The notes below the pieces were generated by a model that was not told where the DNA came from, searched no databases, and was given only the letters and a program-made list of their open reading frames with translations. Shown here in pieces: positions 15,427 through 40,939 of a stretch of DNA of 40,939 nt. The translations under genes and the position numbers were made by a program. The number at the start of each line of letters is the position of its first letter. The stretch's first letter is position 1. The stretch comes from Clostridioides difficile. Its GTDB lineage: Bacteria > Bacillota > Clostridia > Peptostreptococcales > Peptostreptococcaceae. The stretch covers positions 1 to 40,939 of the forward strand of contig NZ_OEZH01000080.1 of assembly GCF_900243075.1 (NCBI RefSeq). The letters run 5' to 3'.

Positions 15427-15458
15427 TAAAGATACTATAGTAAATTGGAGGAATGTCT

Positions 15459-16814
15459 GTGAAGAAAAAAGATATTATAGAATTTGAAGTAGATAAGATG
15501 GAATTTGGTGGTACATCTTTAAGCCAAGTTGGAGATAGAGTTATTCATATGAAGGGTGGAATAAGTGGGCAAAAAGTAAGAGCTGGTGTTAAAAAGGTTA
15601 GAAGTAAGAAAGCAGAAGTTAAGATGATAGAATTATTAGAGGACTCACCACTTGAAACTGAAATACCTTGCAAGCACTTTAGAGAGTGTGGAGGATGTAC
15701 GCTATTGTCAGTACCATATGAAAAACAATTAGAAATAAAAGAAAAACAAGTTATGGACTTATTTTTAAAGCAAGACCTATTTGGATTTCAGTTTTTAGGG
15801 ATAGAAGGAAGTCCAGAAAACAAATATTATAGAAATAAGATGGAATATACTTTTGGAGATGAAGTAAAAAATGGACCTTTGACATTAGGTCTTCATAAAA
15901 AAGGAAAGCATATAGATATACAAACTGTTGAAGAGTGTATGTTAGTTGATGAAGATTTTTCAAAAGTATTAGTTTCTAGTGTAGAGTTTTTTAATGAAAA
16001 AAAGCTTCCTTATTATAGAACAATGAATCATAAAGGATATTTGAGACATCTTGTAGTTAGAAAAGGGATTCATACTAATGAGATTATGGTTAATATAGTG
16101 ACTTCTTCTCAAGAAGATTTTGATATGAATGAATTTAAAGATATGCTTTTAGGGATTGATTTAAAAGCTGAGTTGGTAGGGGTACTTCATACCATTAATG
16201 ACGGTTTAGCAGATGCAGTCCAATGTGATGAGTTAAGAGTGTTATATGGAAGAGATTATATACAAGAGGAGATTTTAGGGCTTAAGTTTAAGATTTCGCC
16301 ATTCTCGTTTTTCCAGACTAATACTAAGGGAGCTGAAGTTCTTTATAGTATTGCTAGGGATTTTATTGGAGATTACAATGATAAAGTTGTGTTTGATTTG
16401 TATAGTGGTACTGGGTCTATTGGACAGGTTATGGCTGGTGCTGCTAAGAAGGTGTATGGTATTGAGATAGTTGAGGAAGCTGTTGTTGCTGCTAATGAGA
16501 ATGCTAAGTTGAATGGGCTTACTAATTGTGAGTTTATTGCTGGGGATGTGGCTAAGGTTGTTAAGGATTTGAAGGACAAGCCTGATTTGATTATTGTTGA
16601 CCCTCCTAGACCAGGTATTCATAAGGATGCTATTAGGGATATTTGTGGATTTGGTGCTAAGGAGATTGTTTATATTTCTTGTAATCCTAAGTCTTTGGTT
16701 GTTGATTTGGTTGATTTTAAGGGGTATGGTTATGAGATTAAGATGGTTAAGTGTATGGATATGTTCCCAAATACGCCACATTGTGAGACTGTAGTGTTGC
16801 TACGTCGAAAATAA
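15459..16814 (+). CDS. rlmD: 23S rRNA (uracil-C5)-methyltransferase, RlmD/RumA family
   Basis: About 451 residues. An N-terminal TRAM domain is followed by a cysteine cluster, CKHFRECGGC, near residue 71 for a [4Fe-4S] cluster. A SAM-binding class I domain carries VFDLYSGTGSIGQV. The catalytic Cys lies in SCNPKSL, and VDPPRPG is also present. The GTG at 15459 fits the TTGGAGG site (7-base spacing) better than the ATG at 15453. Two oddities: the last five codons (LLRRK) come from an integrated element, and from about 16290 codon use switches abruptly to AAG, GAG, ATT and TTG in place of AAA, GAA, ATA and TTA. Confidence 0.92.
   Translation: MKKKDIIEFEVDKMEFGGTSLSQVGDRVIHMKGGISGQKVRAGVKKVRSKKAEVKMIELLEDSPLETEIPCKHFRECGGCTLLSVPYEKQLEIKEKQVMDLFLKQDLFGFQFLGIEGSPENKYYRNKMEYTFGDEVKNGPLTLGLHKKGKHIDIQTVEECMLVDEDFSKVLVSSVEFFNEKKLPYYRTMNHKGYLRHLVVRKGIHTNEIMVNIVTSSQEDFDMNEFKDMLLGIDLKAELVGVLHTINDGLADAVQCDELRVLYGRDYIQEEILGLKFKISPFSFFQTNTKGAEVLYSIARDFIGDYNDKVVFDLYSGTGSIGQVMAGAAKKVYGIEIVEEAVVAANENAKLNGLTNCEFIAGDVAKVVKDLKDKPDLIIVDPPRPGIHKDAIRDICGFGAKEIVYISCNPKSLVVDLVDFKGYGYEIKMVKCMDMFPNTPHCETVVLLRRK
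16778..16795 (+). repeat. Left attachment-site repeat (attL)
   Basis: ACATTGTGAGACTGTAGT within the last codons of rlmD (HCETVV). It matches 30459-30476 at 17 of 18 bases, with an identical 11-base core GAGACTGTAGT. Confidence 0.85.
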
Positions 16815-17205
16815 TGCTAGAAATCTTGAGCTTTAGACAGTTTCATAGACATATAATATTTAGATTAGAGGGTAATAAAATTAGGAATAAAGAATTGAAA
16901 AGGTGTTTTGATGTGTCTGTAGTTATATATATGGAGTGTGGGAATACGAAATAAAAAAAGTTTTAATTATAGAAATAGATATTAAATTTATAAATTTAAT
17001 ATCTATTTTTTATGTGAACATATATTTAATTTAAAGAATGATATTTCATAAAAAAAATTAAATATATTTTTAAAATATTTACAATAGAGTTATTTTTTAT
17101 TCGTATAATAATAGAAATATTTTAGCATAAGATGTATAATAAAGGAAAAAATACAGAATTAAAAAACATAAGATAGATAATTGGACTTGGGGGAGAGAAA
17201 TTATT
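16815..17205. other. Left end of the integrated element, no gene
   Basis: 391 bases of AT-rich DNA between rlmD and the Gabija-type operon. It contains the terminator at 16973-17011. A promoter for the OLD gene is expected in 17020-17190 but no convincing pair of boxes stands out. A GGGGGAGAG site lies before the ATG at 17206. Confidence 0.5.
16973..17011 (+). terminator. Intrinsic terminator after rlmD
   Basis: A 36-base perfect palindrome (AAATAGATATTAAATTTA and its complement, 16973-17008) followed by further T residues. It insulates the defence operon from rlmD transcription. Confidence 0.82.
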
Positions 17206-19290
17206 ATGCAATTGACAAAAATAATTCTTAGTAACTATAGGTGTTTTGGAGAAGAACCTACAACTATTGAAATTAATAATTTAACTGGATTTATAGGTCA
17301 TAATAGCAGTGGTAAAACTGCTTTATTAAGTGCACTTATGAAACTTTTTGGAGAAAAGTCTAGTGATAGAATTATTGAAAGATCAGATTTCCATATACCT
17401 GAAAGTATTGATCCAGATAGTATTTCTAAGAATGAATTATATATTGAAGCACAATTTGAGTTTCCTGAATTGGAGAGAGGTAAAGACAGCATATCTATAC
17501 CAGTATTTTTTAAAAATATGGTTGTTAGTGAACCAGGTGGGAAACCTTATTTAAGAATTAGACTTGAAGCAAATTGGGAGAAAAGCTCAAATCCTGAAGG
17601 AAGTATTGATTCAAATGTATATTATATAACATCTACAACAGAGGAGATAAATCCTGAAGATAAGCGTAATATCAAAAGATATGAGCTTGATCAAATAAAG
17701 ATGATTTATGTACCTGCCATTAGGAGACCAGATGAACAGTTAAAAAATGTCTCAGGAACAATAATTTCAAGATTATTAAATGGTATAAGTTGGTCAGAAC
17801 AAACAAAGGCAAGAATTAAAACGAAAGCAAGTGAAACGGAGGAAATTTTCTTTGAAGAAAAAGGGGTTGAATCATTAAAGAAATCACTCGAAACTCAATG
17901 GAATAGTTATCATAAGGATATTAGATATTCTAATCCAAAGATAAACTTCAATAGTACTGATTTAGAGACAATTTTAAAGAAAGTTGAAGTAACTTTTTCA
18001 CCTACAGGGACACATCGAGATTATCGGGTTGAAGAGCTTGGAGATGGGTTACGTTCTTTATTTTATCTTTCACTTGTAAATACATTTTTAGAAATTGAAG
18101 AAGAAATTCTAAAATCTATTAATGATGGTAAAGAAGAAGATATATTTACATTAATACCGCCTGTATTAACAATTGTTGCGGTTGAAGAACCAGAAAATCA
18201 TATTTCACCTCATCTTTTAGGAAGGGTAGTTGAAAAATTAAATCTTATTTCTACAAAAGAAAATTCACAGACAATATTGACATCACATTCACCAGCAATA
18301 GTAAAAAGAATTGAACCAACAGACATAAGGTATTTTAGGATTTGTAAGGAATATGAATGTACAAAAGTGAAGTCAATTATATTACCAAATGAAGAAAAGG
18401 AAGCAGAACAATTTAAATTTGTAAAGGAATCAGTATTAGCATATCCTGAACTTTATTTTGCAAAACTTGTTGTATTGGGCGAAGGTGATAGTGAAGAGAT
18501 CATTATTAAGAAGATGATTGAATTAAAAGCAGAATCTGTAGATTCATCAGAAATTTCAATAGTACCATTAGGTGGTAGGCATGTTAATCATTTTTGGCGT
18601 TTATTAAATGATTTAGAAATTCCATTTATTACTTTGTTAGATTTAGATAGAGAACGAGATGGAGGTGGTTGGGGACGTATAAAGTATGCAATACAACAAT
18701 TAATAAATATTGGTCATGATAAGAATGTATTACTTTATACATGTGAAGGAATTTCACAAGATAATGAATTTAAAGAGATGCATACTTGGGATGTAACTGA
18801 TACTGAAAATATGGCTAAATGGATTGAAATGCTAAAAGGTTATGATGTTTATTTTTCAGCTCCGTTAGATATAGATTTTGCAATGTTACAAAGTTTTAAA
18901 GATAAATATATTTCAGCATTAACAAGTGCGGAAGGTCCTAGGATAAAAGATCATGGAAAAATACAAGATATTGTGATCAATGAAGATACTGAAGATGAAT
19001 CATTGAAAACTGCTTATAAAGATAGAAGAGATAGTGATATTAAATCAACCTTAAAACAAGAAGGTGGCGATGGATCTACTTATACTGAGGGAGAGAAAGA
19101 ACTAATGATATGGTATTCATATTTCTTTTTAGGAAGAGGTAAACCAACTACTCATTTATCTTTATTTTCTAATAATACTGATATAGATTTTGAAAGTTTT
19201 CCATACTGTCTAAAGGAGTTTGTAAATAGTATTATTGAAAAGATGATAGATGATTCAGGGGGGGAAGAAAATGAAGAGGAATTGGGTTAG
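17206..19290 (+). CDS. OLD-family ATPase/TOPRIM nuclease, Gabija GajA-like
   Basis: 694 residues. The N-terminal ABC-type ATPase has Walker A GHNSSGKT (31-38), a signature-like ELGDGLRS near 277, Walker B VAVEEPENH near 326-332 and a switch His in LTSHSPA. The C-terminal TOPRIM domain has Glu426 in GEGDSEE and the Asp pair Asp479/Asp481 in LLDLDRERD, the metal ligands used for DNA nicking. A UvrD-like helicase gene overlaps its end by 20 bases, the arrangement that defines class 2 OLD proteins and the Gabija anti-phage system. It is longer than the GajA proteins I recall (about 580 residues), with extra sequence after the TOPRIM core, so it may be a divergent branch. Confidence 0.88.
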   Translation: MQLTKIILSNYRCFGEEPTTIEINNLTGFIGHNSSGKTALLSALMKLFGEKSSDRIIERSDFHIPESIDPDSISKNELYIEAQFEFPELERGKDSISIPVFFKNMVVSEPGGKPYLRIRLEANWEKSSNPEGSIDSNVYYITSTTEEINPEDKRNIKRYELDQIKMIYVPAIRRPDEQLKNVSGTIISRLLNGISWSEQTKARIKTKASETEEIFFEEKGVESLKKSLETQWNSYHKDIRYSNPKINFNSTDLETILKKVEVTFSPTGTHRDYRVEELGDGLRSLFYLSLVNTFLEIEEEILKSINDGKEEDIFTLIPPVLTIVAVEEPENHISPHLLGRVVEKLNLISTKENSQTILTSHSPAIVKRIEPTDIRYFRICKEYECTKVKSIILPNEEKEAEQFKFVKESVLAYPELYFAKLVVLGEGDSEEIIIKKMIELKAESVDSSEISIVPLGGRHVNHFWRLLNDLEIPFITLLDLDRERDGGGWGRIKYAIQQLINIGHDKNVLLYTCEGISQDNEFKEMHTWDVTDTENMAKWIEMLKGYDVYFSAPLDIDFAMLQSFKDKYISALTSAEGPRIKDHGKIQDIVINEDTEDESLKTAYKDRRDSDIKSTLKQEGGDGSTYTEGEKELMIWYSYFFLGRGKPTTHLSLFSNNTDIDFESFPYCLKEFVNSIIEKMIDDSGGEENEEELG

Positions 19291-21136
19291 TAAAGAAGAT
19301 TGGAGTCCAGCGGCTGGATTCAGACTAGAAGTTGAAGCGATGAATACAGTTATTAATGATAAGAATACACTTGTTGTAGCTGGTCCTGGCGCTGGAAAAA
19401 CAGAGTTATTAGCTCAGAGAGCCTGCTTTTTACTAGAGACTAATACCTGTAGATATCCTAAAAAAATCCTTGCTATTAGTTTTAAAAAGGATGCTGCTGA
19501 AAATTTAAAAGAGCGTTTAGAATTGAGATGTGGGAAAGAATTAGCTTCAAGATTTGAATCAAAGACCTATGATGCTTTTGCAAAAGAAATCGTAGATAGA
19601 TTTAGAAATAGTTTAGATGAAGCATATAGACCTTTAAATAATTACAATATAGCTGAAAATCGTGATGTTAGAAGAGCATTTGAGATAGCAGGATTAAATT
19701 TCAGAGGAAATCAAACTGAATTTAATAAAGTATATGGAAATAAACTATCGATAAATAAATTGCCTTTACATACAGATTTTGTAGATAAGATTTTTATAGA
19801 TGCTTGGAATGTACTACTTAAAGGCAACAAAGATAATAATTTTGTAAGTTCACTTACTTTTGGTATGATATCACGTTTAGCCGAATATTTGATAAGAACC
19901 AATAGGTATATTAAGAAAGCAATTGAAATGACTTATAGTCATGTGTTTTTAGATGAGTTTCAAGATACTAAATCTATTCAATATGATCTTGTTAAAGCTT
20001 GTTTTTTTAAAACAGAAACAATAATTACTGCTGTAGGGGATGGCAAACAACGAATTATGTTATGGGCTGGTGCTAGAAAGTCAATATTTGAAGATTTTCA
20101 AAATGATTTTTTAAGTCAAAAAAGAACATTAATTATGAATCATCGTTCAGCGCCAAGACTTGTAGAGATTCAAAAAGCAATGTATAACAGTTTGAATGAA
20201 GAGGCAATTGATTTAAAAACTAATGAAAAGTGGAATTATGAAGATGGAGAAGCGTATTTAAGACTTTTTGAGGATTATATAAAAGAAGCTGATATACTTA
20301 GTGAGGAAATAGTCGAATTGGTGGAAACAGGTATAGAAATTAATGAAATATGTATATTAGTAAAACAGAGCGTAGATATTTATTCAAAAGAGATTATAAA
20401 TAAACTTTCTGAACGTAATATTAAGGCGCGTAATGAAGCAGTATATCAGGAGATATTAAAAGAAGATATAATAAAGATACTGGTTTCGCTTTTTAGGTTG
20501 TCGTTAAGTGATAGAAATCCCGATGATTGGGATTATATTTACGATATTCTAGGTGAATTATATGGAATAGACGAAGGGTATAACCCCAAAATATTAAATG
20601 ATTTCATTACCAAAGTAGAATTAATGATTAATGATCTCAAGGTAAATTTAAATATTACTGATGAAAAACAATTTTCAGATTTAGTTGATTCTAAGGTTGA
20701 ATATATTTCATATGAAAAATTTGCATCAAAGTTTCAAAAATATAAATCTAAAGATTATTTTGATGATTTGGTAGATAAATTTAAAAAGCTGGTATGGATT
20801 GAATATAATGAAACTAAAGATTGGATTAAAGCGATTGATAACTTTGAAGGAAAAAATTCAATTCCAATAATGACAATTCATAAAAGTAAAGGACTTGAAT
20901 ATGATACTATCTTTTTTGTTGGGTTAGAAGATTCAGCATTTTGGAATTTTAAAAATCAACCAGATGAAGATAGATGTGCATTTTTTGTTGCATTATCAAG
21001 AGCTAAAAGAAGAATTGATTTTACATTTAGCTTAGATAGACCAGCAGGATTTTCGAATTCACAGAAGCATTATTGTATTAATGAATTCTACGAATTGTTT
21101 GATAATACTAAGATTGTAAAAAAGATAGAGTATTGA
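19271..21136 (+). CDS. UvrD/Rep-like superfamily 1 helicase, Gabija GajB-like
   Basis: 621 residues. The SF1A helicase motifs appear in order: Walker A GPGAGKT (38-44), ISFKKDAAENLKER (Ia), LDEFQDTKSIQYDL (II), GDGKQRIMLWAGA (III), MTIHKSKGLEYD (V) and VALSRAKRRI (VI). The start is ATG 19271, preceded by a GGGGGGAAG site; the earlier in-frame ATG at 19250 lies ahead of that site. It overlaps the nuclease gene by 20 bases, so the two proteins are surely made together. In Gabija the helicase partner senses or processes DNA ends and the nuclease cuts. It is longer than typical GajB (about 500 residues). Confidence 0.87.
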   Translation: MKRNWVSKEDWSPAAGFRLEVEAMNTVINDKNTLVVAGPGAGKTELLAQRACFLLETNTCRYPKKILAISFKKDAAENLKERLELRCGKELASRFESKTYDAFAKEIVDRFRNSLDEAYRPLNNYNIAENRDVRRAFEIAGLNFRGNQTEFNKVYGNKLSINKLPLHTDFVDKIFIDAWNVLLKGNKDNNFVSSLTFGMISRLAEYLIRTNRYIKKAIEMTYSHVFLDEFQDTKSIQYDLVKACFFKTETIITAVGDGKQRIMLWAGARKSIFEDFQNDFLSQKRTLIMNHRSAPRLVEIQKAMYNSLNEEAIDLKTNEKWNYEDGEAYLRLFEDYIKEADILSEEIVELVETGIEINEICILVKQSVDIYSKEIINKLSERNIKARNEAVYQEILKEDIIKILVSLFRLSLSDRNPDDWDYIYDILGELYGIDEGYNPKILNDFITKVELMINDLKVNLNITDEKQFSDLVDSKVEYISYEKFASKFQKYKSKDYFDDLVDKFKKLVWIEYNETKDWIKAIDNFEGKNSIPIMTIHKSKGLEYDTIFFVGLEDSAFWNFKNQPDEDRCAFFVALSRAKRRIDFTFSLDRPAGFSNSQKHYCINEFYELFDNTKIVKKIEY

Positions 21137-21189
21137 TTAAGATGATAAAAACTTTAGTATATTATATTTTAAGATATTAGTTATATAAG

Positions 21190-21225
21190 TAGACATTGAA
21201 TTTATGTATTTGATGTCTATTTTTT
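21190..21225 (+). terminator. Intrinsic terminator of the Gabija-type operon
   Basis: TAGACAT (21190-21196) pairs with ATGTCTA (21213-21219), directly followed by six T. Confidence 0.78.
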
Positions 21226-21259
21226 ATATAAAAATATATTAAAGAAAGGATGAATTTGC

Positions 21260-22075
21260 ATGAAGAAAAAAACAAAAATATCTAAAAAGATTGTAAGTTT
21301 TATTATGGTTTTTATAACTATAGTTACTACTATACTTACATCATCAGTTTCAGCTTATGCTAGCGAGTTGGATATGAGTGAACAGACAGGCTTTAATTAT
21401 TTAGGTATTAGTCCAATTACAGGAAGAAAAATTAATCATAACATTTATCGTATGAAGATGGATAATAAAATTGTATTTTGTGTAGAGCCAGGAATTAAAA
21501 CTTCAAGTGGAGGAGGATATATATCGGAGGAGTTAGGAGATAAATTTATATCTACAACACTTCCAAATTATCATAAAAGAAAAGCTGAAATACTTGAGAA
21601 GGTAAATAGACATAATATATTACCTTCATGGAATAATGAAAAAGTTGCAGTTAAAAGTGGAGAAACAATTGAGTTAGAAGATAAGAATGGTATTATTAGA
21701 GAAATGCAATTAGAATCAAATAATACTGGAACAGATATATTACTTGAAGAAAATACTTTGAAAATTACAGCAAATAAAAATTCTAATTCAGGAGTTATTA
21801 GTTATATAAAGATTCCTAAAAATGAGGTTGGAACATCAATAGTTTATCGTAAGCATAACTATCAAAGCTTATCAGAATTTCATATGGAAAGTTCGATGAG
21901 TGCAAATTTAAATATAAATGTAATCAAGTTAGGAATTGTTAAAGTAAAAAAGATTGATGAAGGCACAGGAAAGGAATTAGCAAATGCAAAACTTAGATTT
22001 GAGTATGATGGTGATAGTAAAGAAATTATAACGGGTTCTAATGAAATTGCTAGTATAGAAGATATTATTGGTTGA
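21260..22075 (+). pseudogene. Truncated thioester-domain surface adhesin
   Basis: 271 residues with a signal peptide (basic start, hydrophobic stretch to about residue 34, SAYASE), part of a thioester adhesin domain (VFCVEPG, then YHKRKAEILEKVNRHN and PSW), and the beginning of a SpaA-type domain (GIVKVKKIDEGTGKELANAKLRFEY). In intact relatives a long segment lies between CVEPG and the second half, and many SpaA domains plus an LPxTG anchor follow. Both are missing here, so an internal deletion and a C-terminal deletion are inferred. The frame stops at a TGA exactly where relaxase-like sequence begins. Such adhesins are cargo at this place in C. difficile conjugative elements. Confidence 0.72.
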
Positions 22076-22588
22076 TTAAAAAGTGAAGTATACTTTTGTA
22101 TCTATGAAAAAGACTATGAGCAATATATAAAATTAGATATACCTATTGATGAAGCAAAAATAAAAAATAGATTTGAAATAAGGTTAAAAAATGAAAGAGC
22201 ATATCATGCAGCAGTTGATTTGTTAGCAAATAGAGATGAAGAAAAGACAGCATTTTCAATTATTAATCGTTATATACGTTTTGTTGATAAAGATGATGAA
22301 AAAATTAGAAGTGAATGGAAAACTAATGATCAGTGGAGTTATTTTATTGGTGAAGGTAGAGCGAAGTTAAAACTAACAACAAATCCAGAACCATATAATA
22401 TTCAAAAAACTTTAAATTGGTTATCAAGACAAGTTGCACCAACGTTAAAAACAATTAAAAGGTTAGATAGTTTGAACAACTCAACATTAATTGAGGACTT
22501 AATAAGGTATGCAAGACTAACAGATAAACATAAAAAAATAATTGAACAAAATTCAGTAAATGTTGAAGACATTATTTATGATGAATAA
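22076..22588 (+). pseudogene. C-terminal fragment of Tn916 Orf20-type relaxase
   Basis: About 170 codons resembling the end of the Rep_trans-type relaxase (Tn916 Orf20, MobT): VYFCIYEKDYEQY, KNRFEIRLKNERAYHA, IINRYIRFVDKDD, LKLTTNPEPYNIQKTL, RQVAPTLKTI and a KHKKIIEQNS ending. It lacks the N-terminal catalytic part. It is in the same frame as the adhesin fragment, separated by one TGA. An ATG at 22220 could restart a 122-residue piece, but without a convincing ribosome site. Confidence 0.8.
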
Positions 22589-22640
22589 AAAAATGTAATT
22601 AGTATTGCAGATTTTAATATAAAAGAAGGGAGATATACGA

Positions 22641-22862
22641 ATGAATTTTGGTCAAAATTTATATAATTGGTTTTTATCAAATGCACAATCATTGGTATTA
22701 ATGGCTATAGCTATAATTGGTGTATATTTAGGATTTAAGAGAGAGTTTTCAAAACTTATAGGATTTTTAGTAGTTGCATTAATTGCAGTAGGGCTTGTGT
22801 TTAATGCAGCAGGAGTTAAAGATATATTATTAGAGCTATTTAATAAAATAATAGGTGTGTAA
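22641..22862 (+). CDS. TcpD-family conjugation membrane protein
   Basis: A 73-residue protein with two membrane segments (LVLMAIAIIGVYLGF and LIGFLVVALIAVGLVF) separated by a KREFSK turn. It matches the TcpD family found in Tn916/pCW3-type conjugation modules and would sit in the mating-pair channel. An AAGGGAG site lies ahead of the ATG. In this remnant it is separated from tcpE by the restriction-modification cassette, and the following 239 bases hold no gene. Confidence 0.72.
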   Translation: MNFGQNLYNWFLSNAQSLVLMAIAIIGVYLGFKREFSKLIGFLVVALIAVGLVFNAAGVKDILLELFNKIIGV

Positions 22863-23101
22863 GGATTAAAAGAGAATAGAAAATTATGAGTATATGATGA
22901 AGGGTTCTAATAAGTTTTATTAAAATATATATTGAAAGACAAGTAGAGCTATTTCGAGTTATTACATGTAATGCTAATATATATAACTGCATTTTGGAAA
23001 TTAAATACATAATTAGAAATAGCAAATTTTATAGGTGACTTATTAATATGTTTACTTATTGTATACTATTTGATATATTTAATATGAGGTGATTCTTGAA
23101 A

Positions 23102-23338
23102 ATGGACATAGTGAAAGTTTTTGCTAACAATGTGAGAAAATATAGAAATAAAAAAGGTCTATCACAAGAAGCTTTTGCTGAAAAAGCTGGATTGCATAGA
23201 ACTTATATTTGTGCTATTGAAAGAAAAAAGAGAAGTATTGCTTTAGATAATGTGCAGAAAATTGCTGATGCGCTTGAGATTGAGACTTACTTACTATTTA
23301 TAGAAGGTGAGGAGAAAGAATGTCTAAATTACCAATAG
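23102..23338 (+). CDS. XRE-type HTH protein, probable RM controller
   Basis: A 78-residue single-domain helix-turn-helix protein (FANNVRKYRNKKGLSQEAFA, then HRTYICAIERKKRSI). Size and sequence resemble controller (C) proteins of type II restriction-modification systems, which delay endonuclease production after entry into a new host. The start is ATG 23102, about 9 bases past GAGGTGA; the in-frame TTG at 23096 is too close to it. It overlaps the methylase gene by 19 bases, so all three genes of the cassette form one operon. Confidence 0.78.
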   Translation: MDIVKVFANNVRKYRNKKGLSQEAFAEKAGLHRTYICAIERKKRSIALDNVQKIADALEIETYLLFIEGEEKECLNYQ

Positions 23339-26259
23339 AAAAGCTTATAGAAAATTTAGGTTTTTCAGGGTCAAAGAATCTTGTGAATATAGATATGCTT
23401 ACAAAATTAGATATATCTAAACATGATGTAAAAACTTTAAAAGTTATAAATCCTTATGCAATTTATTTAGTAAATAGTAAGCCATTTATATTATTTATAG
23501 AGTCTTCTTTTGAAGAAAAAAAATTACAACAAATTAGTAAGCTTATATGGAATGCTCAAATACCAATTGCTTTTATATGCGATTCTAATTCTGTTAAAAT
23601 ATTTAATGGAAAAGCTTTGGATTTAAAGTCATATTTAATTGAGGAAATATATAATCAATCTATTGAGGATTTTTCGGAAGAATCTGAGTTTTCTTATTTG
23701 AAAATATCTGATCCATTATTTTGGGATCAATACACTAAACAATATACCAAAACGCATTTAAATGATTATTTGCTAGATAATATTACTTCATTGACAAATA
23801 AATTAAAGAAAAAATATAAGGTGAAATTTGCAACAAAGCTTGTTCTAAGATTAATATTTATTAGATATTTAATCGATAGAGGTGTCGATATAGCTTATAA
23901 AAATTTTAATCATGATATTAAAGCTTCACAAAAAGAACTGCTAAAGATTACTAAAAACAAAGTTGAATTATATGAACTGTTTAAATACTTAAAAGAAAAG
24001 TTTAATGGTAATTTATTTGAGTTAAATGACGAAATTAATAATACTTGTTTAACAGATGAAGTGTTTATTTTACTATCTGATTTTTTATCAGGTAAAATAA
24101 GTATTGACAATGGACAAATGTCTTTATTTTCAATGTATGACTTTAATATCATACCAGTTGAACTAATTAGTAATATATACGAAATTCTTTTAGGAAAAGA
24201 AATTCGTAATAAAGATAACGCATTCTATACTCCGAATTACTTAGCAGAATATATTTTAGATAAAACAACACTTGAATTTCTGAAAAATAATAGGCAATAT
24301 AAAATTCTAGATCCTTCTTGTGGATCAGGAGTATTTTTAGTAAATAGTTTTAGACGTATTATTGATATGAATTTGGGTGATAAACTTTTTTGTGAAGATG
24401 ATAAACTTTTAAAAGAACTTTTATTATCTAATATTTATGGAATTGATATCAATGAAGATGCTATCGATGTTACTATTTTCTCGTTATATCTAACTATTTT
24501 AGATTATAAAGACCCTAAGACATTATCAAAATTTAAACTGCCTAATTTAAAAGGGTGTAATTTAATAGCGAGTGATTTTTTTGATGATAATAAATTGGAG
24601 AGTTTAAAGGAAATTAACTTTGATTTTATCATTGGAAATCCGCCTTGGGGAAGTGTCTCAGATGGATTACATTTAGATTATTGCAATAAAAATGGCTATA
24701 ATGATATGCAACAAAACAAAGAAATCAGTAGAAGTTTTATTTTTAGAGCAAAAGATTTTAGCTCTAGAAATACAGTATGTTCTTTTGTAGTGCATTCTAA
24801 AATACTATATACTCAAAAAAAGCCATCAAAAAAATTCCGTGAATTTTTGCTTAAAAAAAGTCAAATATTTAGTGTAGTTGAAATGTCATCTGTAAGAAAA
24901 TTAGTGTTTAAAAATGCAGACGCTCCTGCAGCAGTTATATCATTTAAGTATAACGAAAGTGAAGAAAATTTAAATAATAGAATCATCTATACATCTTTAA
25001 AACCAAATGTATTTTTTAAATTATTTAACATTATTGTAATTGAAAAATATGATGTTAAATATATTTCACAAAAACTATTATTGGAGAATGATTGGGCTTG
25101 GAAAACTATTGTGTATGGATTCAGTAAAGATATAGATATAATTATGAATATCAAAAAAAAATATCAAACTGTAAATGAAATTATTTTGAAAAACAGTTTT
25201 GTTCATGGAACAGGGATACAAATCAATGGTAATGAAAGCCATGATGCGACACATTTAAAAGGAAAGTGGTATGTTGATTCAAAGAAAGGAATAGATTCAT
25301 TCTATGTTGATATAAATAAAGGGAAAGAACTTACTCAAGATAAAATGAGAAGACCTAAGGCTAATCAGCAAGAAATATTTATTCCTCCATATGTATTATT
25401 AAAAAAGGGAGTTGACACGAAAACATATAGATATAGAGCAGCATTTTCAAATGATGCATTTGTATATTCAGATGCAGTTACAGGAATATGTGGAAAAAAA
25501 GATAATTTAACTACACTTTATTGCTTGACTGGTATGCTTAACTCTTCTTTTTACTCATACTTAAATATAATGCTAGGTACATCAATTGGAATAGAAAGAG
25601 AACAAGGATTTTCAACGGAAATTTTTACGTATCCAGCAATAGAAAGCGATGAAATTGCTAATCTGGTAGTAAAAATACAAGAAGCGACTAAATTAGAAAA
25701 AACAACTATGTTCTTGAATGAAAAAAATAGTTGTAAGTATATCAAACAATTAGATAAGTTAATTTTGAAGTCTTTTAATTTAAATGATGATAAATTTATT
25801 GACTATGCAATAAATATTCAAATTCCTGAGCTTACAAATTCTAAGTCAACTAACATATATAGAAAAATAACTAAGGAAGATTTAATTAATTATAGTGAAT
25901 GTTTCAAAGAACAGTTTTCATCGATATATCGTAGGGTTGGGAAAAGTATTTCAATTTCGGTATATCCAAAAATATTAAATCGTTTTACAGTATTTGAACT
26001 AGAAGTAACAGATGAAAAAACAGATAGAGAGATTATGGTTAAAGCAGAAGCTGATAATAATATGGAGTTGTTTACGAAAATAATTAGATATGATTATAAT
26101 GATGTTTTTCATCAAATTAGAGATATTATTCATTTTGGAGAAAATTCATTTTATATCATAAAGCCTAATTGCTATAAATATTGGCATCCTGCTATCGCAG
26201 AAATGGATCTTGCTGATGTTTTGGATCAGATTTTATCTGATACAGGGGGTGAAGAATAA
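23320..26259 (+). CDS. N6-adenine DNA methylase of a restriction-modification system (Eco57I-like)
   Basis: 979 residues. The SAM motif I DPSCGSGVFLVNS starts at residue 331 and the catalytic motif IV NPPW is at 440-443 (a variant of NPPY), preceded by YTPNYLAEYILD. The region after about residue 600 (KGKWYVDSKKGIDSF, then GICGKKDNLTTLY, LNSSFYSYL) fits a target-recognition domain. The first 130 residues look like a degenerate type IIG nuclease or binding domain; I see no clear D-ExK set. The stop overlaps the nuclease gene by one base (TAATG), which points to a split arrangement in which the methylase supplies target recognition. Function as RM is inferred from context. Confidence 0.83.
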   Translation: MSKLPIEKLIENLGFSGSKNLVNIDMLTKLDISKHDVKTLKVINPYAIYLVNSKPFILFIESSFEEKKLQQISKLIWNAQIPIAFICDSNSVKIFNGKALDLKSYLIEEIYNQSIEDFSEESEFSYLKISDPLFWDQYTKQYTKTHLNDYLLDNITSLTNKLKKKYKVKFATKLVLRLIFIRYLIDRGVDIAYKNFNHDIKASQKELLKITKNKVELYELFKYLKEKFNGNLFELNDEINNTCLTDEVFILLSDFLSGKISIDNGQMSLFSMYDFNIIPVELISNIYEILLGKEIRNKDNAFYTPNYLAEYILDKTTLEFLKNNRQYKILDPSCGSGVFLVNSFRRIIDMNLGDKLFCEDDKLLKELLLSNIYGIDINEDAIDVTIFSLYLTILDYKDPKTLSKFKLPNLKGCNLIASDFFDDNKLESLKEINFDFIIGNPPWGSVSDGLHLDYCNKNGYNDMQQNKEISRSFIFRAKDFSSRNTVCSFVVHSKILYTQKKPSKKFREFLLKKSQIFSVVEMSSVRKLVFKNADAPAAVISFKYNESEENLNNRIIYTSLKPNVFFKLFNIIVIEKYDVKYISQKLLLENDWAWKTIVYGFSKDIDIIMNIKKKYQTVNEIILKNSFVHGTGIQINGNESHDATHLKGKWYVDSKKGIDSFYVDINKGKELTQDKMRRPKANQQEIFIPPYVLLKKGVDTKTYRYRAAFSNDAFVYSDAVTGICGKKDNLTTLYCLTGMLNSSFYSYLNIMLGTSIGIEREQGFSTEIFTYPAIESDEIANLVVKIQEATKLEKTTMFLNEKNSCKYIKQLDKLILKSFNLNDDKFIDYAINIQIPELTNSKSTNIYRKITKEDLINYSECFKEQFSSIYRRVGKSISISVYPKILNRFTVFELEVTDEKTDREIMVKAEADNNMELFTKIIRYDYNDVFHQIRDIIHFGENSFYIIKPNCYKYWHPAIAEMDLADVLDQILSDTGGEE

Positions 26260-26933
26260 TGGGAGGATTTAAAAATTCTTCACTAAACTTTTATTTAAAG
26301 CAAGGGCTTTATGAAATAATTATAGATGGATTAATAGACTGTTGTTTACTTATGAGCAAATCATGTATTGAACAATCTAGAAAAATATTAAATCACGAAG
26401 AAAAGATAAGAACGCATTTAGTTGAAAATTATTTAGAAAATGATATTGAAAGAAGAAAAACATCTTTATCTAAACAACATCTAAGATTTGAAGTCGAAGC
26501 ACAAGAAAATTATGACAACAAAAATGAATCTTATGAGGGTAGGGTTGATATAAAAGTTATCTCTAAAGACACTTTAGCGGATAGAAGGGCTTATTATATC
26601 ATTGAATGTAAAAGGATAGATGGTAAGGAAACTTTAAATAAAAAATATATAACCGAAGGTGTACAGCGATTTATTACTGAGAAATATTCTTCGCATTATG
26701 GCAAAAATATAATGCTTGGATTTATAGTAAAAGATATAAATATCCAGAGCAATATACAAAAAATTAATTCACTGAATCAGAACATATTATATACATATAT
26801 AGATACAGATATGTTGACAGTTAGAAGTGATTCTGAAAATAATTATGCTGTTTGTGAAAGTAAATATAAAGTAAAATCTAAACCACTATTGTTAAATCAT
26901 ATTTTTTATAACTTTTCGAGTATAATAAGATAA
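26259..26933 (+). CDS. PD-(D/E)xK nuclease, probable restriction subunit
   Basis: A 224-residue protein with a PD-(D/E)xK-type core: Asp97 in YEGRVDIKV, then Glu116 and Lys118 in YIIECKRIDG after 18 residues, and Glu93 nearby. It has no methylase or helicase motifs. It is translationally coupled to the methylase by a one-base overlap, so it most likely cuts DNA for that system. I do not recognise a named restriction enzyme, and it could instead act on modified DNA. A terminator follows at 27028. Confidence 0.7.
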   Translation: MGGFKNSSLNFYLKQGLYEIIIDGLIDCCLLMSKSCIEQSRKILNHEEKIRTHLVENYLENDIERRKTSLSKQHLRFEVEAQENYDNKNESYEGRVDIKVISKDTLADRRAYYIIECKRIDGKETLNKKYITEGVQRFITEKYSSHYGKNIMLGFIVKDINIQSNIQKINSLNQNILYTYIDTDMLTVRSDSENNYAVCESKYKVKSKPLLLNHIFYNFSSIIR

Positions 26934-27027
26934 TCTTATGAATATAAAATATTACTATGTTAAAATTATAGTTTGGTTTTGATAATATTATAAAAATAAG
27001 TTTAAGAATAAAATATAAAGGAAAAAA

Positions 27028-27070
27028 GGGGCGTAGCACTATTTTTTAGTGCGACAGCTCCTTTAATTTT
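27028..27070 (+). terminator. Intrinsic terminator of the RM operon
   Basis: GGGGC (27028-27032) pairs with GCTCC (27057-27061) and GCACTA (27036-27041) with TAGTGC (27047-27052), with a small internal loop and then TTTAATTTT. It shares the GCGACAGC arm with the hairpin at 41-90. Confidence 0.75.
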
Positions 27071-27093
27071 AAAATCGGTAAGGAGGAGTGTAT

Positions 27094-27510
27094 TTGAAAA
27101 AAATTAAGTCATATACAGGGATTTGGAATGTGGAGAAGGTTATATATGCAATAAATGATTTTCAGCTTCCATTTCCAGTTACTTTTACGCAGATGACATG
27201 GTTTGTATTAACACTTTTTATAATTATATTATTTGGTAAGTTACCTCCATTATCTATGATAGAAGGAGCATTTTTAAAGTATCTTGGCATACCAATTTTT
27301 ATAACTTGGTTTATGTCTCAAAAGACTTTTGATGGAAAGAAACCATATGGATTTTTAAAGTCAATAATACTATATTCATTAAGACCTAAAATAACATACG
27401 CAGGAAAAAACATTAAATTTAAAAATAAAATTATTGATGAAAATATAACTATAGTAAGGAGTGAATTATATGTTCCCGATAAAATATATAGAGAACAATC
27501 TTGTATTTAA
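27094..27510 (+). CDS. TcpE-family conjugal transfer membrane protein (Tn916 Orf17-like)
   Basis: 138 residues with two membrane segments (MTWFVLTLFIIILFG and LKYLGIPIFITWFM) and a C-terminal basic tail, matching the TcpE/Orf17 family of Tn916-type conjugation modules. The start is taken as TTG 27094, about 7 bases after AGGAGG; the GTG at 27088 is too close. It overlaps the VirB4 gene by 41 bases, as in Tn916. Confidence 0.8.
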   Translation: MKKIKSYTGIWNVEKVIYAINDFQLPFPVTFTQMTWFVLTLFIIILFGKLPPLSMIEGAFLKYLGIPIFITWFMSQKTFDGKKPYGFLKSIILYSLRPKITYAGKNIKFKNKIIDENITIVRSELYVPDKIYREQSCI

Positions 27511-29917
27511 TAAGGAAGGAGAATGTTTTGCATATTATGAATTAATACCATATAATTATTCATTCTTATCAGCTGAACAAAAATTTATTGTACATGATAA
27601 TTTTAGGCAATTAATATCACAAAGTAGAAATGGTAAAATTCATGCACTTCAAATAGCCACTGAAAGTTCTATAAGAGCTACACAAGAAAGGTTAAAGAAA
27701 AATATTACAGGAAAATTAAAAGAAATTGCTTATGAAAAAATAGACGAGCAAACAGAGGCACTTGTTTCTATGATTGGCGATAATCAAATTGATTATCGTT
27801 TTTTTATTGGGTTTAAGCTTTTAGTTACAGAGAAAGAAATGAATATAAAGAGTATAAAAAAGTCAATATTAGCTAATCTATCAGATTTTATATATGATGT
27901 TAATAATAAATTGATGGGAGACTTTGTCAGTATAAATAATGATGAAATTATGAGATTTTTAAAAATGGAAAAGTTATTAGAAAATAAAATCTCAAGAAGA
28001 TTTAAAGTTAGAAGGTTAGATAAAAATGATTTTGGATATTTAATTGAACATAATTATGGAAAGAAAGGCACAGCTTTTGAAGATTATCAATACCATTTAC
28101 CTACAAAGAAACTTAAAAGAGAAACATTAGTAAAGAAATACAATCTTATAAAGCCAACTAGATGTCTTATAGAAGAGAAGCAAAGATACTTAAAAATTAT
28201 ACATGAGGATTCAGAAAGTTTTGTAGCTTATTTTACTATTGAAAGTATTATTGGAGAAATGGATTTTCCATCTAGTGAGATATTCTATTATCAGCAACAA
28301 CAGTTTGCATTTCCTATTGATACTAGTATGAATGTGGAAATTGTAACAAATAAAAAGGCTTTAACTACAGTTAGAAATAAGAAAAAAGAATTAAAAGATT
28401 TAGACAATCATGCTTGGCAGTCAGGGAATGAAACAGTAACAAATGTAGTAGAAGCATTAGAGGCTGTAAATGAGCTTGAAAATAATTTAGATCAAACAAA
28501 AGAATCAATGTATAAGTTAAGCTATGTAATTAGGGTATCAGCAGATAGCATTGATGAATTAAAACGCCGTTGTGATGAAGTTAAAGATTTTTATGATGAT
28601 TTAAATATAAAATTAGTACGCCCAATGGGAGATATGATAGGATTTCACAATGAATTTATACCTTCAAGCAAAAGGTATATAAATGATTATATTCAATATG
28701 TAACTAGTGATTTTCTAGCAGGATTAGGGTTTGGAGCAACTCAACAGCTTGGAGAGAACGAAGGAATATATATTGGATATAGTTTAGATACAGGAAGAAA
28801 TGTATATCTTCAACCATCTCTTGCAAGTCAAGGAGTAAAAGAATCTGTAACTAATGCGTTGGCAGCAGCATTCCTTGGATTTTTAGGAGGTGGGAAATCA
28901 TTTGCTAATAACTTACTTGTTTACTATTCAGTATTGTTTGGAGGGCAAGCTGTTTTGGTGGATCCAAAAGCTGAACGTGGCAAATGGAAAGAAAATTTAC
29001 CAGATATATATCATGAAATAAATATTGTTAATTTAAGAAGTGATATAGAAAATAAGGGAATGCTAGATCCTTATGTAATTATGAAAGAAGTAAAAGATAG
29101 TGAAAGTTTAGCTATTGATATATTAACTTTTCTTACAGGAATAAGTAGTCGTGATGGAGAGCAGTTTCCTATACTTAGAAAAGCAATCAGAAATGTTACT
29201 CAAGGCAAATGCAGAGGACTTTTGAAGGTAATAGATGAATTAAGGAAAGATAATTCTCAAATATCAAATAATATTGCAGATCATATTGAAAGTTTTACAG
29301 ATTATGATTTTGCACAATTACTTTTCTCAGATGGAAATATTAAAGGCTCAATTAATCTAGAAAAACAAATGAATATAATACAAGTTGCAGATCTTGTTTT
29401 ACCGGATAAAGATACTTTATTTGAAGAATATACAACAATGGAAAGTCTTTCAGTAGCTATGTTGATAGTAATTAGTACTTTTGCATTAGATTTTATCCAT
29501 ACAGATAGAAGTACTTTTAAAATAGTAGATTTAGATGAAGCTTGGACATTTCTTAATGTAGCACAAGGAAAAACTTTATCTAATAAATTAGTTAGAGCAG
29601 GACGTGCTATGAATGCAGGAGTGTATTTTGTAACTCAAAATGCAGGTGATGTATCAGATGAAAATTTAAAAAACAATATTGGATTAAAATTTGCATTCAG
29701 AAGCACAGATATCAATGAAATTAAGAGAACACTTGAATTTTTTGGAGTTGATAAGGAAGATGAGAATAATCAAAAAAGGTTAAGAGAGTTAGAGAATGGA
29801 CAGTGTTTAATACAAGATTTATATGGACGAGTTGGGGTAATACAAATACATCTAGTTTTTCAAGAACTCCTTACTGCATTTGATACAAGACCACCTATAA
29901 GAAAAGAGGTGGATTAA
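27470..29917 (+). CDS. VirB4-like conjugation ATPase (Tn916 Orf16-like)
   Basis: An 815-residue cytoplasmic ATPase that powers the conjugative type IV secretion channel. Walker A is GFLGGGKS (470-477), Walker B is in KIVDLDEAW near 685-692, and a FVTQNAGDVSD switch segment follows. The start is ATG 27470, 8 bases past AAGGAG. The gene appears complete, although the rest of the machinery is missing. Its stop overlaps the next ATG (TAATG). Confidence 0.88.
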   Translation: MFPIKYIENNLVFNKEGECFAYYELIPYNYSFLSAEQKFIVHDNFRQLISQSRNGKIHALQIATESSIRATQERLKKNITGKLKEIAYEKIDEQTEALVSMIGDNQIDYRFFIGFKLLVTEKEMNIKSIKKSILANLSDFIYDVNNKLMGDFVSINNDEIMRFLKMEKLLENKISRRFKVRRLDKNDFGYLIEHNYGKKGTAFEDYQYHLPTKKLKRETLVKKYNLIKPTRCLIEEKQRYLKIIHEDSESFVAYFTIESIIGEMDFPSSEIFYYQQQQFAFPIDTSMNVEIVTNKKALTTVRNKKKELKDLDNHAWQSGNETVTNVVEALEAVNELENNLDQTKESMYKLSYVIRVSADSIDELKRRCDEVKDFYDDLNIKLVRPMGDMIGFHNEFIPSSKRYINDYIQYVTSDFLAGLGFGATQQLGENEGIYIGYSLDTGRNVYLQPSLASQGVKESVTNALAAAFLGFLGGGKSFANNLLVYYSVLFGGQAVLVDPKAERGKWKENLPDIYHEINIVNLRSDIENKGMLDPYVIMKEVKDSESLAIDILTFLTGISSRDGEQFPILRKAIRNVTQGKCRGLLKVIDELRKDNSQISNNIADHIESFTDYDFAQLLFSDGNIKGSINLEKQMNIIQVADLVLPDKDTLFEEYTTMESLSVAMLIVISTFALDFIHTDRSTFKIVDLDEAWTFLNVAQGKTLSNKLVRAGRAMNAGVYFVTQNAGDVSDENLKNNIGLKFAFRSTDINEIKRTLEFFGVDKEDENNQKRLRELENGQCLIQDLYGRVGVIQIHLVFQELLTAFDTRPPIRKEVD

Positions 29918-30003
29918 TGAAATCGAAAGTATTTAGAAATTTAAGCTGGATAACTATTTTAATAGTAGTACTTTTACTATTTTTTATTTATATAAATTTA
30001 TAG
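29917..30003 (+). pseudogene. N-terminal stub of VirB6-like membrane protein (Tn916 Orf15-like)
   Basis: A 28-residue frame starting on the VirB4 stop: basic start, then a membrane segment (ITILIVVLLLFFIYINL), then TAG. Position and opening match the VirB6-like protein that normally follows VirB4. The sequence turns into serine recombinase at about 30000, so the stub marks a deletion junction. Confidence 0.6.
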
Positions 30004-30479
30004 ATTTAGAGAAACAAATAGATACATTAGATAAGAAAAGAAAAAAACTCATAGATATGAGATTAGAAGATATAATTGATAAGGAATCATATGAAGAAAA
30101 GTATGATGATTTAACAGTTGAAATAAAGAAACTTAGTAAAGAGAAAAAAACTCTTAAAGCATCATTAATAAATGAAAAGAGTATAAAAGCAAGACTTAGA
30201 GAATTTAGAAAGACACTTGAAAGAAATGAAGTGTTAGAAAAATTTGATAGATATGTATTTGAAAGTATAGTAGATAAGGTTATAGTTGGAGTTATTAATG
30301 AAGATGGTATAGTTGATCCTTATAAAATAACTTTTGTTTATAAAACTAGCTTTGATGATAAACAAGATGGACATAAATTTATAAATAAGAGTCCGTTAGA
30401 AACGTATTCAAAAGATAACAACGATAATAAAAAGAAGTGTTCATATACTAATAATGAGACATTGCGAGACTGTAGTTAA
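30003..30479 (+). pseudogene. C-terminal fragment of a large serine recombinase
   Basis: About 158 codons of the coiled-coil and C-terminal tail of a large serine recombinase (TndX/TnpX-like): MRLEDIIDKESYEEKYDDL, KKLSKEKKTLKASL, RFDRYVFESIVDKV-like segment and GIVDPYKITFVYK. The N-terminal catalytic domain with the Ser nucleophile and the zinc-ribbon domain are missing. The frame ends within the right attachment repeat, which fits an element-encoded integrase lying at the element edge. Confidence 0.82.
30459..30476 (+). repeat. Right attachment-site repeat (attR)
   Basis: ACATTGCGAGACTGTAGT, 17 of 18 bases identical to 16778-16795 and in the same orientation. Confidence 0.85.
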
Positions 30480-30495: not shown

Positions 30496-30560
30496 CAAGG
30501 TTTCAGACTTTTATATTGTGTCTTAAAAGTAGATTTGCCACCTATTTGCCACCATAATTA

Positions 30561-30799
30561 GGGTCTTTAAAATAAAGTGTGTATTCTTCTAAAGGAGTGA
30601 TAATTAAAATATCAAATATCACTATACAAGATGCACACTTTTTATGTTTAACAAAAACGAAATATTAAAAAAACTTATTGAAGAATATGATGTCAAAGCA
30701 ACTACAGATATTCAAGATATGCTAAAAAATTTATTTACAAATACAATTCATCAAATATTTACATTGTCGAATTTTAACGGTTTAAACATAATATATTGA
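30561..30799 (+). mobile_element. Remnant of an IS256-family transposase gene
   Basis: An ATG at 30644 opens a 51-codon frame (MFNKNEILKKLIEEYDVKA, then IQDMLKNLF) that resembles the N-terminus of IS256-family transposases and stops at a TGA at 30797. The rest of the transposase and the right end are missing. GGGTCTTTAAAATAAAGTG (from 30561) may be the left terminal repeat. The remnant fills most of the gap before the YHYH gene and may have supplied sequence near its promoter (TATAAT at 30804-30809). Confidence 0.6.
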
Positions 30800-40755: not shown

Positions 40756-40932
40756 ATGGAAAATCTAATGATGAGTATTATAGCTGGTGTTATAGCCAGT
40801 TACATTTACGATAAATTAAAGAGCCACTCTGAGCGACCAACTGAACTATACCCACTGTTTTATACAGTAAAAAAATGTAAAAGTAGTTATAAAGTACTAG
40901 TGTCACTCATTAGTACTTTTTTATTATATTAA
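40756..40932 (+). CDS. Small hydrophobic protein, probable type I toxin
   Basis: 58 residues: a hydrophobic helix (LMMSIIAGVIASYIY) then a basic hydrophilic stretch (DKLKSHSE and KKCKSSYK). Size, topology, very strong GAGGAGGTGA site and long structured leader match the membrane toxins of C. difficile type I toxin-antitoxin pairs. The start is ATG 40756; the in-frame GTG at 40747 lies inside the ribosome site. Oddly, the reading frame runs through the terminator hairpin at 40891-40922 and its stop (40930) lies beyond it. Either the original stop has been lost, or the terminator is weak. Toxicity is inferred, not shown. Confidence 0.62.
   Translation: MENLMMSIIAGVIASYIYDKLKSHSERPTELYPLFYTVKKCKSSYKVLVSLISTFLLY
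40891..40922 (+). terminator. Intrinsic terminator overlapping the toxin-like reading frame
   Basis: AAAGTACTA (40891-40899) pairs perfectly with TAGTACTTT (40911-40919); the T run spans 40917-40922. Confidence 0.7.
40924..40929 (-). promoter_or_regulatory. Candidate -10 box of an antisense antitoxin RNA
   Basis: TATAAT on the minus strand would start an RNA near 40916, antisense to the 3' end of the toxin-like gene. The -35 would lie beyond the window, so this cannot be completed here. Confidence 0.35.
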
Positions 40933-40939
40933 TATAATG

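Follow-up and report, generated by a model that had tools for sequence, protein, structure and literature searches.

Do the two overlapping genes at positions 17206-21136 of Clostridioides difficile contig NZ_OEZH01000080.1 make up a complete anti-phage system, and what kind of DNA carries them? The whole stretch analysed, referred to here as the window, comprises the 40,939 nucleotides of this contig; the genes of the element, its target gene rlmD, the att cores and the hairpin repeats described below are given on its plus strand. An initial annotation, made from the letters and a list of open reading frames (ORFs), had proposed an enlarged Gabija-type nuclease-helicase pair at the left end of a broken conjugative element. 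We assign a probability of roughly 80% to the following interpretation: the two genes, gajA and gajB, together form a complete Gabija-type system against phages, one of a subfamily with long proteins, and this system lies near attL as cargo of a decayed integrative and conjugative element (ICE) once inserted in the 3' end of rlmD. The domain make-up, catalytic residues, gene pairing and cargo position are matters of observation; the anti-phage function is what we infer.

The gene pair and its long-form relatives

The gajA gene (17206-19290) encodes a 694-residue ABC ATPase with an OLD-like TOPRIM nuclease (Pfam AAA_15 and OLD-like_TOPRIM), which scores 870.6 bits against PADLOC model PDLC00090. 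Its partner, gajB (19271-21136), encodes a 621-residue UvrD-like SF1 protein (Pfam UvrD-helicase and UvrD_C) that scores 731.6 bits against PDLC00103, a value obtained with the longer ORF 19250-21136. The two models, 659 and 612 positions in length, are covered almost end to end. The longest ORF that can be drawn mechanically for gajB starts at 19250 and specifies 628 residues. The ATG at 19271 is preferred because it is preceded by a purine-rich GGGGGAAG stretch and because residue 12 of the 628-residue product aligns to position 3 of the PADLOC profile. With this start, the two genes, which have the same orientation, overlap by 20 nt.

A scan of genome contigs returned 24 relatives, 41-86% identical, in Firmicutes, Bacteroidetes and Acinetobacter. 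The GajA alignment contained the window protein and 21 of these (22 rows), after leaving out L017 (a near-duplicate of L022), L023 (truncated) and L024 (a fragment); the GajB alignment contained the window protein and 22 of the 23 relatives having a GajB, with L017 again left out. In the 22 GajA rows, the Walker A residues G31, N33, S34, G36 and K37, the Walker B residues E327-E328, H361, and the TOPRIM residues E426, G456, D479 and D481 (E/G/DxD) are all invariant. Pairwise alignment places these last four opposite E379, G409, D432 and D434 of Bacillus cereus GajA, the residues named as its active site in an excerpt of PMC10781630; an excerpt of PMC8136825 reports that the E379A change abolishes nuclease activity. 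GajB retains a GPGAGKT motif, whose A and T are nearly invariant, and a DEFQD box with a nearly invariant F. By structure comparison, the folds of both proteins were judged to be like those of solved GajA and GajB.

Since gajB overlaps gajA, the arrangement is not that of a class 1 OLD, in which a single gene stands without a helicase. What is found instead is a GajA with a complete active site, an adjoining UvrD-like GajB and a full-length match of both to curated models. By these models the pair is a class 2 OLD nuclease with a UvrD-like helicase, that is, Gabija, a system reportedly defined by this very pairing by Doron et al. in 2018. Assignment of GajB to the repair helicases (AddAB/RecBCD, UvrD) was considered and rejected: repair-helicase models score far under their cut-offs (117.5 bits at best, against 965; 114.5 against 1144; AddA, 47.6 against 707.65). 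The initial annotation was thus borne out on the intact ATPase and TOPRIM residues, on the complete helicase with its 20-base overlap and on the Gabija pairing, and the placement with AddAB-like repair proteins that it had named among the outcomes speaking against it was not seen.

It had further remarked that both proteins are some 110-120 residues longer than usual, and had suggested that the pair may be a divergent Gabija subtype equipped with additional domains for sensing or regulation. The difference is real when measured against the B. cereus proteins (GajA, 578 residues; GajB, 493-499 residues in PDB chains), which the window proteins exceed by about 116 and about 122-128 residues, respectively. 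It is not unusual among the relatives. Their full-length GajA proteins span 659-695 residues, the exceptions being one locus truncated at 574 and one fragment, and the best models are themselves of the long kind. GajB adjoins GajA in 23 of the 24 relative loci; in the remaining one (L015), the contig ends 409 nt past the GajA ORF. Lengths and gaps were taken from the coordinates of 23 relatives, with the start of the tblastn match serving as the start of GajA. On plasmids, 145 records match; coverage of the query reaches at least 80% in 47, all below 60% identity. The larger size is normal for a widespread subfamily and is not new.

The extra segments were located by comparison with two short-form pairs from plasmids, of Paenibacillus (591 and 505 residues) and Lactococcus (572 and 502 residues), for both of which the short models PDLC00081 and PDLC00122 are the best match. 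Relative to these pairs, seven stretches of at least 5 residues are inserted in the long GajA, and most of the extra length comes after the TOPRIM core; the largest stretches, 558-605 and 619-640, both follow the TOPRIM DxD. The long GajB has nine inserted stretches. Within the second large GajA stretch, the sequence EKELMIWY (positions 630-637) is invariant in the 22 aligned long proteins; neither of the two short ones has it. A Pfam scan found no domain beyond the ATPase and the TOPRIM, and no added domain was identified. An added sensing domain was therefore rejected, there being no extra Pfam domain and the insertions being scattered; the notion that size marks a divergent subtype is not supported either, since long curated models fit the proteins almost end to end.

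The cargo slot beside attL

The borders of the element that carries the pair can be drawn from two short direct repeats. The last codons of rlmD/rumA (15453-16814; NCBIfam rumA, 277 bits) contain a 17-bp core, attL (16779-16795), and a second core, attR (30460-30476), is identical to it at 16 of 17 positions. These cores, CATTG(T/C)GAGACTGTAGT, occur nowhere else in the window. DNA homology to six of seven congeners stops at 16795; in G002 it runs past this position into a related remnant. Sequence from window position 30459/30460 onward directly follows rlmD in five of the seven (G001, G003, G004, G006 and G007), which represents the empty site. At this locus, G005 shows neither the empty site nor such a remnant. 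From the core positions and the congener homology borders, the element extends from 16796 to 30476. It measures about 13.7 kb and restores both the C-terminus of RlmD and the 3' end of the gene. Such a location, at the end of rlmD and flanked by short direct repeats, is that of rumA/rlmD-inserted ICEs with a serine integrase.

Immediately inside attL lies a conserved left flank (16796-16959), alignable to G005, G002, G007 and G044. A search of 297 genomes with this flank gave matches in 53, among which these four were taken as homologous besides the window's own genome; the others are mostly short and AT-rich, with one longer match in G067 (135 bases, 69%). When the query extended to 17000, the match ended at 16950-16957 in G005, G007 and G044 and continued in G002; a query consisting of the entire window gave an end at 16959 in G005. 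One query that itself stopped at 16962 is uninformative on where homology ends, and the two longer ones were used.

What follows the flank differs from locus to locus. In the window, gajAB occupies the space between two copies of a hairpin. In G002 (L070, about 1043-1100), gajAB is missing, and the flank continues across one hairpin and on into a surface-protein gene that is broken. In G005, at a second RlmD paralogue, the same slot holds three genes, with PADLOC matches to LmuA (144.5 bits) and LmuB (313.8 bits) and Pfam matches to CTD7 (below cut-off), MC3 and DUF3732; they are identified by these matches as a Lamassu/ABC-3C cassette. G044, which belongs to a different genus within the family, has the same cassette, bounded by the left flank on one side and by a similar hairpin on the other. 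The two cassettes (L109 1762-5501 in G044; L071 1845-5576 in G005) share 90.9% DNA identity over 3747 bp, which, across two genera, suggests recent movement of the whole slot content. In G007 the left flank is followed by an adhesin gene, different from those of the others, and there is no cargo. The pair thus sits in a slot with exchangeable defence cargo, for which three states are observed over four loci (window, G005, G002 and G044). To the right of the slot, the order is terminator hairpin, then surface-protein gene. A search for this surface protein in 297 genomes of the order gave matches in 17, of which 13 lie outside the genus and are weak (E 5.8e-16 or worse).

The window hairpins, AT-rich and with a T-run, belong to a 67-nt repeat, one copy lying upstream of gajA (16963-17029) and the other between gajB and the surface-protein gene (21177-21243). 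They fold at -14.7 and -14.9 kcal/mol (z -4.9 and -4.4). Chance was rejected as their origin by a shuffle test, in which none of 200 shuffles was as good for either; the initial annotation had thus correctly placed terminators on both sides of the pair. A terminator scan of 16700-23400 that requires GC-rich stems found none because the stems are AT-rich. The two copies are 81% identical over the 67 nt and align with a score of 45, whereas the best of 500 Markov-resampled controls scored 27; they are copies of one hairpin. The right copy closely resembles the single hairpin of G002 (86/103). Folding is marked in the latter (z -5.7) and in the right hairpin of G005 (z -4.5). Recombination at the terminator hairpins would be the simplest route of cargo exchange.

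Apart from this, G044 carries a second GajA/GajB-type pair about 5 kb beyond its Lamassu cassette (L109 10304-14340; PDLC00080, 743 bits; PDLC00131, 663 bits), whose GajA is 22% identical to that of the window over 496 residues.

Mechanism and competing explanations

The nearest relative of the pair is that of Lachnoanaerobaculum gingivalis (86% identity for GajA, 83% for GajB). Between the two, the ratio of nonsynonymous to synonymous substitution rates (dN/dS) is 0.27 over 685 codons of gajA and 0.22 over 620 codons of gajB; a good part of that divergence may have taken place in donor genomes, so that the value averages over donor lineages. At E 0.001, GajA matches occur in 10 of 71 genomes of the family, the best outside the window's own genome having an E value of 1.8e-7, and in none of the seven congeners. 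This sparse distribution fits a recent arrival of the pair. A scan of viral contigs gave six pattern matches and no relative. Separately, an unannotated, unverified bacteriophage sequence from human faeces (MT839996.1; L098 250-2256) encodes a GajA 52.7% identical to that of the window.

If the pair works as its B. cereus counterpart does, the most likely course is the following. GajA, by sequence and models an ABC ATPase joined to a TOPRIM nuclease, would form a GajA-centred oligomer with GajB, by the same evidence a UvrD-like ATPase, held together through helices inserted in the GajA ATPase. Bound nucleotide would keep the nuclease off; it would be released once infection lowers nucleotide levels or once GajB has engaged the DNA of the phage. 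DNA cleavage at the TOPRIM centre (around E426, D479 and D481) would follow, so that the phage is stopped or the cell killed. For B. cereus Gabija, excerpts of the respective papers describe a nucleotide-inhibited nuclease released during infection (PMC8136825), a 4:4 GajA-GajB assembly (PMC10781630) and regulation by GajB (PMC10957863).

Several observations weigh against the interpretation adopted here. In structure comparisons, SMC heads score as high as GajA for the GajA query, and UvrD, PcrA and Rep outscore GajB for the GajB query. Searched with a profile of the long GajA, the Thermus class 1 OLD reaches 69.3 bits and B. cereus GajA 54.0 bits, so that the single name Gabija covers real divergence. 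Identity between the long GajA and the two short forms is only about 18% (102/557 and 101/549 aligned residues), and the B. cereus biochemistry is for this reason not automatically transferable. A promoter-like site upstream of gajA (17112-17140) matches at 10 of 12 positions, but such sites are common here and are not enriched (36, against a shuffle mean of 47.2). As to the slot, the comparison covers only four loci. The left hairpins of G005 and G044 are barely like that of the window (scores of 22 and 13, where the two window copies reach 45), and the G005 one folds weakly, being equalled by 12 of 200 shuffles (z -1.9); this unlikeness suggests that the cassettes bring their own left border. 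Finally, blastp at 1e-5 gave no match between either RlmD and the product of the gene that precedes the flank in G044.

Three other explanations can be set against the same evidence. That the nuclease and helicase serve DNA repair or upkeep of the element, and not phage defence, would agree with the structural likeness of GajB to UvrD, PcrA and Rep and with the rank of the Thermus OLD, but repair-helicase models fall far below their cut-offs, the pair is absent from seven congeners, and it is located where G005 has another defence cassette; we hold this to be very improbable. The pair might also be silent cargo of a decaying element, intact in looks only. The element has indeed lost most of its Rep gene, about 5.7 kb at 22063, and all of its recombinase except one piece. 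Both gaj frames are nevertheless open with every catalytic residue in place, the dN/dS values are low, if averaged over donor lineages, and the promoter-like site is present, if of a common kind, so that silence is improbable.

Less easily set aside, though still unlikely, is a defence system that owes its name to the gene pairing and works unlike B. cereus Gabija, for example with a truly unwinding GajB or a different trigger. The low identity to short forms, the conserved EKELMIWY segment that both short forms lack, and the UvrD-like size of GajB speak for it, as does an excerpt of PMC10681800 in which B. cereus GajB is described as having no UvrD helicase elements and as not unwinding DNA. 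Against it, domain order, active-site residues and pairing are all the same, and PADLOC files both forms under Gabija. A bolder version can be offered as speculation, doubtful as it stands: the long subfamily might be a functionally distinct Gabija branch, whose UvrD-sized GajB may unwind DNA and whose EKELMIWY segment after the TOPRIM may change substrate choice, housed in a dedicated defence slot of this ICE family inside attL, with a terminator hairpin as right border, that exchanges Gabija, Lamassu and perhaps other systems. We retain the interpretation of the pair as a Gabija-type defence system of the long subfamily.

Element content and comparison with known systems

To the right of the slot, the rest of the element is reduced. 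The surface-protein fragment (21260-22075) has no Pfam match of its own and is 77% identical to its G005 homologue (L071 5577-6530), which has a thioester domain (TED) above cut-off and an SpaA domain just below it. A deletion junction lies in the fragment at 22063, where the window lacks about 5.7 kb relative to G005. The next ORF (22220-22588) is the C-terminal fragment of a Rep_trans initiator (Pfam positions 110-201 of 201; 93% identical to the end of the 395-residue G005 Rep). Conjugation functions are represented by a TcpE-family protein (27088-27510; Pfam, 119 bits) and an 818-residue VirB4-like AAA_10 ATPase (27461-29917; Pfam, 525 bits; 78% identical to L072 over 816 residues). A 140-residue piece (30057-30479) with the attR core at its end has no Pfam match; it is 91% identical to L071 19350-19769, the sequence that follows a Resolvase/Recombinase ORF of G005 (18300-19106), and by this homology it would be the C-terminal remnant of a serine recombinase. 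Presumably the C-termini of such recombinases resemble this piece. Among the ORFs scanned, the identified content consists of these fragments, TcpE and VirB4, and neither a complete integrase nor a complete conjugation module was found. The element is broken and decayed; that the pair occupies the left end of such a conjugative element, as first described, is upheld. A megablast search of plasmids with the whole element gave no match.

The element carries a second defence gene, a 979-residue type IIG restriction enzyme-methyltransferase (23320-26259; PADLOC PDLC03603, 386 bits). Together with a 224-residue ORF having a sub-threshold PDDEXK_9 match, it makes up a second defence unit (23320-26933), in place of which G005 has other DNA. 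The region deleted from the window copy encodes, in the related element of G005, a Mom-family protein (L071 8839-9690; Pfam, 196 bits). In G002, a gene for a 1015-residue protein matching the Mokosh MkoC model (L070 1929-4976; 944 bits) is found a short way downstream of the rlmD element remnant, so that the rlmD site gathers defence genes in this genome too. Just downstream of the empty rlmD site of G004, a 381-residue ORF (L055 8326-9471) resembles, by eye, a phage-type integrase. Just right of attR, a repeat of about 200 bp (30550-30759) has at least 16 further matches in its own genome, several of them at contig ends, and more in congeners; it shows no marked fold (z -0.6), and an Rfam scan of the window gave no match. 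For the last 100 bases of the window (40839-40939), the same genome has matches at five or more further sites, a few of these being contig ends, and the contig probably stops in a repeat for this reason.

How does the locus compare with systems already described? The pair shares with Gabija of B. cereus VD045 an ABC ATPase joined to a TOPRIM nuclease with E/G/DxD residues and followed directly by a UvrD-like partner. It differs in the added lengths (about 116 and 122-128 residues) and, relative to two other short forms, in the roughly 18% identity of GajA. With the PADLOC long-form models PDLC00090/PDLC00103 and the relatives it has length and pairing in common and matches nearly end to end; no feature was found that sets it apart from them. 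The Gabija system itself is thus ordinary. As presented in the excerpts cited, Gabija biochemistry rests on one short-form B. cereus pair, and the widespread long form would indicate how far the mechanism extends.

The element resembles the serine-integrase ICEs of rumA/rlmD, namely streptococcal ICEs and CTn5 of C. difficile, in its insertion in the rlmD 3' end and its short direct repeats, and its attR lies at the end of the putative integrase remnant; excerpts of PMC4701971 and PMC4320837 place attR of such ICEs within the integrase gene and CTn5 in rumA, respectively. It differs in that only the putative recombinase C-terminal piece, the Rep fragment, TcpE and VirB4 were identified. A literature search of limited coverage gave no title on Gabija in rlmD-inserted elements. 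The cargo slot, more interesting than the system it holds, recalls the defence hotspots of Pseudomonas genomic islands, described in an excerpt of PMC12629846 as having conserved borders and exchangeable defence systems that include Gabija. It differs from them in element family and host group, in having a terminator hairpin as its right border and in the number of loci compared, four, three of which have defence genes in or next to the slot. The long Gabija subfamily and the decayed-ICE kind were already known; what is added here are the exact borders of the element and a defence cargo slot in three states. One slot that is empty, occupied by Gabija or occupied by Lamassu in closely related genomes amounts to a natural experiment.

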